Both the position numbers and the translations under genes were made by a program. A stretch of 38,652 bases of DNA, taken from positions 1 through 38,652 of the forward strand of contig NZ_JAHFRY010000024.1 of assembly GCF_023266035.1 (NCBI RefSeq), written 5' to 3'. The notes beneath the pieces were generated by a model, which had not been told where the DNA came from, did not search any database, and saw only the letters and a program-made list of their open reading frames with translations. Position 1 is the stretch's first letter. Each line of letters starts with the position of its first letter. The stretch is from Nevskia sp. GTDB lineage: Bacteria; Pseudomonadota; Gammaproteobacteria; Nevskiales; Nevskiaceae. This document shows, piece after piece, positions 24,009 to 37,944 of the stretch.

Positions 24009-24036
24009 TGTCCGTTTCGGCGCGCCGATTGCGTTT
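24009..24036 (+). promoter_or_regulatory. Module-B promoter-like motif B1: TGTCCG-N16-GCGTTT
   Basis: TGTCCGTTTCGGCGCGCCGATTGCGTTT, directly upstream of the kinase ATG at 24043. Confidence 0.8.
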
Positions 24037-24042
24037 GCCTGA

Positions 24043-26730
24043 ATGATGAAAGCCCTGCCTTGTCCCCCCGAGTTATGGCCCCGCTTCTCGGCGTTGCTCG
24101 ATACCGCGCTGGAACTGGACACGGCTGCCCGTCGCGCCTGGCTGGACACCCTGCCGGCCGACGATGCGGCATTGCAGCCCTGGCTGGTCGCGGTACTGCA
24201 GGCCGATGGTCTGCAGGCCACCGGTGCGGCGTTCGAGCGGCCGATGTCGATGGTCGAGACAGCCCCGGCGTTCGTTGCGGGTGATCGGATCGGACCCTGG
24301 CTGCTGATCAGGCCGCTCGGTTCCGGCGGCATGGGCCAGGTCTGGCTGGCGCGCCGTGACGATGGCGCCTACCAGCGCGAAGTGGCGCTGAAGCTGCCGC
24401 ATGCGCACCTGATCAGCGGCGCGCTGCAGCGCCGCTTCGCACGCGAGCGCAACGTGCTTGCTGGCCTGGTCCATCCAAACATCGCGCGTTTCTACGATGC
24501 CGGGCTTGGCGAGCAGGGCCAGCCCTGGCTGGCACTTGAGTTCGTCGATGGCGAGCCGCTGGGCGTCTATTGCCAGGCACAAGCGCTGGACCTCAAGGCG
24601 CGGATCGAACTGATCCTGCAGGTGACGGCAGCGGTGCAGGCCGCGCATTCGCGGCTGATCGTCCATCGCGATCTGAAGCCGGCCAATGTGCTGGTCACGG
24701 CGGCCGGGCAGGTCAAGCTGCTCGATTTCGGCATCGCCAAGCTGCTCGACGACGAGGCTGAAGACGGCACCGCGCTGACCCAGCTCGGCGGCCGCATCGC
24801 CACGCCGGACTACGCAGCACCCGAGCAGCTCGCCGACGGTGCGATCACCGTCGCCACCGATGTCTACGCGCTCGGCGTGATGCTCTACGAGCTGCTCACC
24901 AGCCAGCGCCCGTTTGCGCCGCGGTCCAGAGTCGGCCAGCTGCTGGCTCAGGATCTGGAAGCGCCGCCGGCATCGAGCCGCGTCGATCGCCAGCAGCGCA
25001 GCGCTTTGATCGGCGATCTCGACGCCATTCTCGCCAAGGCGCTGGAGCCGGACCCGACGCGGCGCTACGCCTCGATGGAAAGCTTCGCGGCCGATCTGGT
25101 GCGCCATCTCGCCCACCAGCCGATCAGTGCGCGGCGTATCAGCCGCCGACAACGCGCGGGCAAGTTCCTGCGCCGCAATCGTCGCGGTGTCGCCGTCGGT
25201 GGGCTGCTGCTGGCGAGCCTGGCGGTGGGTATCGGCGGCGTGCTCTGGCAGGCGCAGCGCACCGCGGAGCAGGCCCGCCGTGCCGACGCCACCAAGGACT
25301 TCCTGGTCAGCCTGTTCATCGCCAACGATCCGCGCATCGCGTCCGACAAGCCGCGCGGCGAGATCACTGCGCGCGAGCTGCTGGAACTCGGCGCCGATAG
25401 AGTCGAACGCGAGTTCGCCGATGATCCGCTGACCCAGGTGGAGCTGTACGGCGTGATCACCGACATGGTTCTGCTTTACGACAACGACGCGCGCAGCGCA
25501 GCGATGCAGAGCCGTCGCGAAGCGATGGGCCGCGCGCTGTACGGCGAAACCCACGCGATCTATCTGCGATGGCTGCTGTTCGACGCCAGCCGCTACGTCA
25601 ACCGCAGCGAGTTCGAGGCCGCCGATGCGCTGCTCGCACGCATCGACCCGCTGCTCACCCGTGGCGGCCACGACGAGAGCGAGCTGCGCGCCGCCTGGTG
25701 GATCAGCAAGGAGGCGGTGCTGACCTATCGCGAAGGCAGCGCCGCTGAACGCCGCCACGCGCTCGACGAAGCGGTGCGGCTGCTGGAGAAGTACGCGCCC
25801 ACCCATGCCGACTACGGCACCGCCATCGCCAACCGCGCCACCAACGCCTATCACGACGAGGACTACGCGACCGCCAAGGCCGACACCCTGCGCGCCATCG
25901 AGATCCACGGCGGCGTCAAGGACACCAACGATCTGCAGCTGGCCGCCTACTGGGGCAACCTCGGCAATGCCTGCCTGCAGCTTGGTCAGGCGGCTGAAGC
26001 CGATCAGGCCTACGCACGCGCCACCGAACTGCTGCGCCGCACCGGCGCACTCGACGATGGCTGGTACTGGCGCATGGAGGCCAGCCACGCTCGCGCCGTG
26101 CATCTCGCTGGCGATACCGCACGCGCCGACGCCATGTTCGCCGCACTGATGCCGCTGATCCCCGCGGACTGGAGCGAGTACCCGGACGATGCCTTCGCCC
26201 ATCGGCTCTACGGCGAACGCCTGCTCGCCGAAGGCCGGCCGGCAGACGCCGCGCGCTGGCTCGAACAGGCCGATCGCGAGTACCGCAAGCCCGGCAGCTA
26301 TCCGCCGGAGCAGCCCACGGTGCAACTGCTGCTCGGTCTCGCCTACGCGCAACTGGGCCGCGCCGATCAGGCCCGTCCTGCGCTCGACGCGGCGCATGCG
26401 TTCTTCTCGGCAGAGGCGCTCGCCGGTCGTGCCGATACGCTGGCCTATTACGAACTGCGTGGCCGGGCCTGGCTGGCACTGAAAGACCGGGAGCAGGCCG
26501 CTGCTGCCTTCGATCAGGTGATCGACAAGGCCGGTAGTCGCCAGACCGAAGCCGTCGCGCTGGCCTGGGCGGGCCGCGCCAGTCTGCTGCTGCAGGCGGG
26601 TGCTGTGGCGGACGCACGCAAGGCCAGCGATCAGGCACAGGCGCTATGGTCGCGAGCCACCGGCCTGCGTGATCGGAACCTGCAGGCCTCTATGGACCGG
26701 TTGCGCAGCGAGGTGGCAGCGGCACGCTGA
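24043..26730 (+). CDS. Ser/Thr protein kinase with C-terminal TM and TPR-like region (module B)
   Basis: GSGGMGQVWLA, VALKLP, VHRDLKPANVLV, LLDFGIAK; hydrophobic GVAVGGLLLASLAVGIGGVLW; helical repeats after. Confidence 0.94.
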   Translation: MMKALPCPPELWPRFSALLDTALELDTAARRAWLDTLPADDAALQPWLVAVLQADGLQATGAAFERPMSMVETAPAFVAGDRIGPWLLIRPLGSGGMGQVWLARRDDGAYQREVALKLPHAHLISGALQRRFARERNVLAGLVHPNIARFYDAGLGEQGQPWLALEFVDGEPLGVYCQAQALDLKARIELILQVTAAVQAAHSRLIVHRDLKPANVLVTAAGQVKLLDFGIAKLLDDEAEDGTALTQLGGRIATPDYAAPEQLADGAITVATDVYALGVMLYELLTSQRPFAPRSRVGQLLAQDLEAPPASSRVDRQQRSALIGDLDAILAKALEPDPTRRYASMESFAADLVRHLAHQPISARRISRRQRAGKFLRRNRRGVAVGGLLLASLAVGIGGVLWQAQRTAEQARRADATKDFLVSLFIANDPRIASDKPRGEITARELLELGADRVEREFADDPLTQVELYGVITDMVLLYDNDARSAAMQSRREAMGRALYGETHAIYLRWLLFDASRYVNRSEFEAADALLARIDPLLTRGGHDESELRAAWWISKEAVLTYREGSAAERRHALDEAVRLLEKYAPTHADYGTAIANRATNAYHDEDYATAKADTLRAIEIHGGVKDTNDLQLAAYWGNLGNACLQLGQAAEADQAYARATELLRRTGALDDGWYWRMEASHARAVHLAGDTARADAMFAALMPLIPADWSEYPDDAFAHRLYGERLLAEGRPADAARWLEQADREYRKPGSYPPEQPTVQLLLGLAYAQLGRADQARPALDAAHAFFSAEALAGRADTLAYYELRGRAWLALKDREQAAAAFDQVIDKAGSRQTEAVALAWAGRASLLLQAGAVADARKASDQAQALWSRATGLRDRNLQASMDRLRSEVAAAR

Positions 26731-26768
26731 ACCCGGCCGTCAGCGGCCTCGGTTCCCTGAAGGAACGA

Positions 26769-26796
26769 TGTCCGGTTTGGGCGCGCGGTTGCGTTT
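26769..26796 (+). promoter_or_regulatory. Module-B promoter-like motif B2: TGTCCG-N16-GCGTTT
   Basis: TGTCCGGTTTGGGCGCGCGGTTGCGTTT, ~35 nt upstream of the 26832 start. Confidence 0.82.
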
Positions 26797-37446: not shown

Positions 37447-37447
37447 C

Positions 37448-37912
37448 GTGCTGAGTGGCCGGCCGGTGCATCGTCTGATCCTGCTGTGGACCTGCACGCT
37501 TCCGCTGGCCGTCCTCGCGTTCCAGCTCGGCATGCGCTTCTGGCTGCTGCAGGCCGGTGAGCCGGTGGTCGGCATGGTGACGGTGGCGCAGGACAGTTGC
37601 GTGACGCGCCATCGCGCCAACTGTTTTCTCGGCCGCGCGGTGGTCGATCCGCGCATGGAATCTCACCGATTCAAGAGCACGCGGCTTCCTGGCGGTCGCT
37701 TCTATCGAGTCGGCGAGGAATTGCCGATGCGCGTCCACCCGGCGCAGCGCCTGTATCTGGCCCAGGTCTATGACCCGCTCAGCTGGCTGCTCGGCCCGGT
37801 GCGCACGGCCGCCTGTCTGTTGCTGCTGCTGTTCGCAGCGGCGATGCCGGCCGGGCGCAGGGCGTTGTGGGTGTTGCCAACTTGCCTGGTGCTGTTCCTG
37901 TCGCTGGGCTGA
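37448..37912 (+). CDS. Membrane protein of unknown function (module B)
   Basis: GTG start; N- and C-terminal hydrophobic segments LILLWTCTLPLAVLAFQLGMRFWLL and AACLLLLLFAAAMPAGRRALWVLPTCLVLFLSL. Confidence 0.55.
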   Translation: MLSGRPVHRLILLWTCTLPLAVLAFQLGMRFWLLQAGEPVVGMVTVAQDSCVTRHRANCFLGRAVVDPRMESHRFKSTRLPGGRFYRVGEELPMRVHPAQRLYLAQVYDPLSWLLGPVRTAACLLLLLFAAAMPAGRRALWVLPTCLVLFLSLG

Positions 37913-37916
37913 GCCA

Positions 37917-37944
37917 TGTCCGGTTTCGGCAGCGGCTTGCGTTG
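37917..37944 (+). promoter_or_regulatory. Module-B promoter-like motif B6: TGTCCG-N16-GCGTTG
   Basis: TGTCCGGTTTCGGCAGCGGCTTGCGTTG, ~41 nt upstream of the 37986 start. Confidence 0.72.

Follow-up and report, generated by a model that had tools for sequence, protein, structure and literature searches.

In sigma factors of the ECF43 group the acidic DAED patch is missing, and activation comes from a linked kinase, which phosphorylates a threonine at that place (PMC13147305, PMC8999054). ECF43 sigma-kinase pairs are among the few cases of a bacterial sigma factor under the direct control of a eukaryotic-like kinase. Two described systems, EcfK/PknS of Xanthomonas citri and EcfP/PknT of Vibrio parahaemolyticus, have as their targets a type VI secretion system and resistance to polymyxin. 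The targets of ECF43 factors are largely uncharted, and a sharp promoter signature would let their regulons be read from genomes. We found no promoter motif for EcfK, EcfP or ECF43 in the open-licence literature; because our search covered papers of that kind only, the novelty of an ECF43 promoter motif is provisional. Two further points of comparison are the promoters of ECF41, which read TGTCACA-n16-CGTC (PMC3426412), and the contacts made by K170 of SigW and R171 of E. coli sigma-E with G' at -31, the fifth position of the -35 element (PMC6713349).

The window (the whole stretch of DNA that was analysed, 38,652 nucleotides) contains a gene cluster, module B (Table 1), whose sigma factor, sigma-B, is of the TIGR02999/PF07638 type, consists of sigma2 and sigma4 only and is encoded next to a Hanks-type kinase with one membrane helix as judged by eye. 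The sigma2.2 motif of sigma-B, LDTTA, includes T50, which is invariant in the aligned orthologues: DAED is replaced and an acceptor-type threonine is present, as in the QTTA/STTA forms, here as DTTA with the first Asp retained. Sigma-B is probably an ECF43-type factor activated by the kinase, and its dependence on phosphorylation may be only partial because DTTA retains one acidic residue. Directly 5' of the sigma gene lie a fatty acid desaturase gene and a rubredoxin gene (22241-23357); a desaturase-like frame occupies this place also in L042-L044, and a divergent PKD gene does so in L045 and L046. Overall, we assign a probability of roughly 0.9 to the explanation that six two-block sites in module B are promoters for RNA polymerase carrying sigma-B, within a kinase-controlled circuit.

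Table 1. Features of module B and module A. Genes directly following sites 1-6 are given from their likely start codons.
Feature	Coordinates	Strand	Basis
Sigma-B, probable ECF43-type ECF sigma	23433..23984	+	TIGR02999 E 7.8e-48; PF07638 E 3.9e-38; alignments
Promoter site 1 (putative), kinase gene	24009..24036	+	kinase preceded by site in 9/9 loci
Transmembrane Ser/Thr kinase, C-terminal TPR region	24046..26730	+	PF00069 E 3.4e-41; TPR hits
Promoter site 2 (putative), PKD lipoprotein	26769..26796	+	conserved in 4/4 related loci
Large PKD-domain lipoprotein	26832..30176	+	PF18911 E 6.3e-23
Promoter site 3 (putative), CsgG-like lipoprotein and following small genes	30201..30228	+	conserved in 4/4 related loci
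CsgG-like lipoprotein	30263..31036	+	PF03783 E 2.1e-21
Three short ORFs (about 31047-31394, 31391-31696, 31693-31899), likely part of the CsgG operon	31047..31899	+	reading frames
Promoter site 4 (putative), secreted protein	31900..31927	+	conserved in 2/3 loci having the gene
Secreted protein (sec31956), without family	31956..33521	+	profile search, locus comparison
Secreted protein, in operon with 31956-33521	33518..34102	+	4-nt overlap; homologue in L044
Promoter site 5 (putative; weakest, ACGTTC), secreted protein-lipoprotein-OmpA operon	34133..34160	+	conserved in 3/3 family loci having the gene
Secreted protein MKKAFCLLALTAVAAAAPAQAF... (sec34191)	34191..34679	+	locus comparison
Lipoprotein	34682..35293	+	weak DUF3558 match
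OmpA-domain protein	35290..36375	+	PF00691 E 3.7e-18
Secreted protein, without family	36400..37446	+	profile search
Small membrane protein	37448..37912	+	ORF; homologue in L044
Promoter site 6 (putative; GCGTTG), small secreted protein	37917..37944	+	none before L044 homologue
Small secreted protein (s37986)	37986..38231	+	locus comparison
Module A sigma, ECF43-type, LDTTA, helix RTVDREL	15711..16262	-	paralogue of sigma-B
Module A kinase	12937-15618	-	profile search
Module A site (putative) before its kinase	15673..15700	-	TGTCGTGAT-N14-CGTCY
Module A site (putative) before gene 12783-10552	12818..12845	-	TGTCGTGAT-N14-CGTCY
Module A site (putative) before secreted gene starting 10465	10518..10545	-	TGTCGTGAT-N14-CGTCY
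Module A site (putative) before secreted gene starting about 8638	8666..8693	-	TGTCGTGAT-N14-CGTCY

Scanning the window with TGTCCG-N16-RCGTTB returned exactly six matches, all on the plus strand, against a chance expectation of 0.05 per window (maximum 1 in 100 dinucleotide shuffles); varying the spacer by +/-2 nt returned the same six sites and none extra. The coordinates, strand, sequences and spacing given for them in the initial annotation were all borne out, and the window holds no further sites. Their described placement, just upstream of the kinase or of a secreted-protein gene or operon, was likewise confirmed, as all six are wholly intergenic and stand before a gene, in a module of which only 504 of 14,799 bases (3.4%) are intergenic. 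From the end of the motif to the likely start codon there are 9, 35, 34, 28, 30 and 41 nt for sites 1 to 6, respectively. Genome-wide (4.5 Mb in 243 contigs, 96.8% complete), the pattern matched nine times versus once for a reversed-pattern control, so that the scan proposed as a check did not yield many hits unrelated to gene starts: the three matches outside module B all fall inside ORFs, and G027, a genome without a close sigma-B orthologue, contains two of them in identical form. A search that tolerated up to two mismatches to TGTCCGGTTT-N12-GCGTTT recovered the six sites and one other (control, one). As far as the assembly shows, the six sites are private to module B.

An alignment of 24 sites from the window and related loci gave the refined consensus (G)A-TGTCCG-G-TTt-N13-CGTT-T-G-N6-TGA. 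Since TGTC and CGTT served to select these sites, the constancy of those letters follows in part from the selection; on the other hand, the A before TGT (21/24), the two T (23/24 and 22/24), the G after the second block (23/24) and the TGA 8-10 nt beyond that block (16, 18 and 18 of 24 per letter) played no part in selection. The TGA coincides with the position at which transcription had been expected to start, and the predicted -35 block extends beyond TGTCCG to TGTCCGGTTT, which refines the motif as initially described. The sites have the two blocks, fixed spacing and CGT-type -10 of ECF-type promoters, as well as their position just 5' of transcription units; an AAC-type -35 is absent, its place being taken by TGTCCGGTTT. 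An AAC-type -35 is typical of many ECF groups but not required, and the TGTC type, which has been published for ECF41, marks a subtype and does not exclude the sites from ECF-type promoters. A conventional transcription-factor binding site, in place of a -35/-10 pair, is a reading to be weighed here, given that activators can bind two-block motifs and that the evidence for promoters comes from sequence. We nevertheless consider it very improbable: the second block repeats the first in neither direct nor inverted orientation, the N19 distance to a CGT second block is rigid, as in known ECF promoters, and the blocks end 9-41 nt from the starts and are followed at the expected +1 by a conserved TGA, which leaves little room for a separate downstream promoter.

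If the six sites are promoters, most of the genes they lead other than the kinase would have leaders of about 19-32 nt with a GGAG-like Shine-Dalgarno sequence. The kinase gene has no Shine-Dalgarno sequence and a predicted leader of about 0 nt, with the predicted +1 of site 1 at its start codon (24043 or 24046) or within 1-3 nt of it. Within 24032-24048 the predicted transcription start is the kinase ATG itself, and a leaderless kinase mRNA is possible; a conserved leaderless mRNA was set aside because the distance from motif to start varies among relatives.

We compared module B with sigma-B orthologue loci from five other genomes (77-95% identity), two Lysobacter MAGs (73-75%) and one 56% relative. 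Gene by gene, the sites recur at the rates listed in Table 1, with the L099 kinase site reading TGTCCT; an exact site is absent before sec31956 and s37986 in L044 and before sec34191 in L098. Gene order differs in L045 (kinase, sec31956, CsgG), and the PKD gene is inverted or divergent in L045 and L046, where its site is found on the opposite strand, so the sites stay with their genes. In another of these loci (L042, genome G024), a REP-like stretch (GTCATTCCCGCGCAGGCGGGA...) at about 2302-2470 separates the promoter site from the kinase start. Every genome with a sigma-B orthologue has a cluster of TGTCCG sites, and the cluster is absent from G013 and G027, in which module A is present and a close sigma-B orthologue is not. 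These comparisons also bear on whether the sites are copies of a dispersed repeat or of a duplicated leader, alike by descent and not by function. Sites 2 and 3 do have most of the first spacer half in common (GGTTTGGGCG), but across the 24 sites the blocks are retained and the spacer middle and flanks show no conservation, the sites occur only before genes, and they persist in relatives whose sigma is 77-95% identical. We regard common descent as an extremely improbable explanation of their likeness.

The spacing can be followed beyond close relatives. We counted TGTC-Nk-CGTY for k=10-29 in 74 non-redundant ECF43-like sigma loci and observed a sharp peak at k=19, where the pattern occurs in 15 sigma/kinase junctions and 12 divergent upstream regions (0-4 at other k in either case). 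At k=19 it was present in one same-strand region upstream of sigma and in no junction in antisense, and scrambled -35 words gave 0-3. In most of the inspected close paralogues with no site at the junction, the sigma and kinase genes nearly touch, leaving no room for a junction promoter. The autoregulated partner thus appears to be the kinase gene and not the sigma gene. Two broader ideas were set aside: sigma autoregulation, as there is no same-strand site upstream of the sigma gene, and a universal ECF43 promoter, as the motif is missing from most of the distant ECF43-like loci.

The window contains a second ECF43-type sigma-kinase module, module A (8069-16262, minus strand), which also includes a CsgG-like gene (9914-9156) downstream of the secreted gene that starts at 10465. 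Its motif, TGTCGTGAT-N14-CGTCY, has the same geometry as that of module B but different bases. Unrestricted enumeration of gapped words per locus had returned mostly codon-usage noise, and the motif emerged when the second word was restricted to CGT/CGAT forms. Genome-wide, the four module A sites alone match with at most one mismatch (at two mismatches there are 51 background matches, control 21), and they recur in the orthologous locus L059. Further variants were seen elsewhere. A third module in G026 (L251, helix RTVERDW) carries a variant, TGTCGGGTT with CGTTC, in three copies (TGTCGGGTTT-N13-CGTTC), one of them before a lipoprotein gene. In another family of the order (G060-G063, L119-L136), TGTCCGG[AT]TT-N12-NCGTT sites are scattered genome-wide, often 24-58 nt ahead of small ORFs (about 75-115 aa), several of which are alike (MRTHLYASEHGRIVAVDD..., MKVHLYCSPNGRVVAVDN...); two that were scanned had no Pfam family. 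These scattered sites are likely the dispersed regulon of a related sigma. The window also contains three REP-like palindromic units, GGCGGGA..GCC..GGCG..TCCCGCCTT, on the plus strand at about 5255, 5822 and 7113.

What might distinguish such motifs is suggested by the recognition helix of sigma-B, TERTVRRDWEKAR, in which R168 aligns with SigW K170 (phmmer alignment). Among the 27 loci having both a site and an RT[VIL]X helix, helices with X=R go with TGTCC in 16 of 17 cases and those with X=Q/E/D with TGTCG in 10 of 10, the one exception being L234 (X=R, TGTCG); most of these data had already served to find the association. On the tree it corresponds to two or three independent switches, with two informative pairs (sign test, p 0.5). 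Samples of sigma loci from the class and phylum and 40 further order-level paralogues, chosen as held-out sets, had TGTC-N19-CGTY at chance level only. Genome-wide counts in the order, with sigma-B orthologues excluded, gave 24 C to 2 G in R-only genomes and 1 C to 7 G in Q/E/D-only genomes (p 5e-5, for genomes that are related to each other); p rose to 0.04 without family f4 and to 0.06 without f4 and G026. Taken with the alignment, these data point to R168 as the most likely reader of -35 base 5. A link between residue and base is plausible and structurally expected. The more general proposal, that a subset of ECF43 factors reads private TGTC-N19-CGTY promoters and that one helix residue (X in RT[VI]X-R) determines the fifth -35 base, C for R and G for Q/E/D, seems to us evenly balanced between right and wrong.

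This leads us to the question of which sigma factor uses the sites. ECF promoters overlap in sequence and the genome encodes at least two further sigmas of the sigma-B type, so the module A sigma, the C194 sigma or an unlinked one might be responsible. We find this improbable, since module A has its own, different motif, the TGTCCG cluster follows the presence or absence of a sigma-B orthologue as described above, and the recognition-helix residue of sigma-B fits TGTCC. The same observations, together with the helix-base covariation, conservation through rearrangement and the 19-nt spacing at junctions and divergent promoters, support the assignment to the adjacent sigma that the initial annotation had offered as an inference. 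Its reading of the sites as dedicated ECF promoters is strongly backed by their privacy to the module, intergenic placement, gene-by-gene conservation and fixed spacing.

Sites, placement, conservation, spacing and covariation are features of the DNA, and around them we infer transcription, sigma dependence, phosphorylation and signal in the following circuit. The linked transmembrane kinase would sense an envelope signal and phosphorylate T50 in region 2.2 (DTTA), which would let sigma-B bind core polymerase. The holoenzyme would then recognize TGTCCGGTTT, in the register predicted here, as the -35 element and CGTT as the -10 element, probably starting transcription at the conserved TGA, 8-10 nt 3' of the -10 block, and would transcribe the kinase gene and the surface-protein operons. 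Since none of the sites belongs to the sigma gene, positive feedback would run via the kinase and not via the sigma gene.

The putative promoters of module B form a remarkably clean set, and a hypothesis of specificity that can be tested goes with them. Two adjacent modules whose promoters differ in sequence but share one geometry, along with a residue-base link that matches crystal structures, open promoter specificity to direct probing by single substitutions and suggest a set of insulated switches. If the residue does set the base, it would insulate neighbouring sigma-kinase modules of a genome from one another and make their regulons predictable from sequence.

Compared with known systems, module B resembles EcfK/PknS and EcfP/PknT in that the sigma gene adjoins a gene for a transmembrane Ser/Thr kinase and that a conserved threonine in sigma2.2 stands where other sigmas have DAED. 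It differs from them in the DTTA motif, which keeps one acidic residue, and in its predicted targets, which are locally encoded surface proteins, CsgG-like and OmpA-domain proteins among them. The promoters of ECF41 have identical geometry, with TGTC 19 nt before CGT, and likewise lie upstream of neighbouring genes, whereas the bases after TGTC differ and ECF41 sigmas, unlike sigma-B, have a C-terminal regulatory extension and no kinase link. Finally, in SigW and E. coli sigma-E the residue aligned with R168 contacts the fifth -35 base pair (PMC6713349), within -35 elements that read GAAAC/GGAAC, versus TGTCC in module B.
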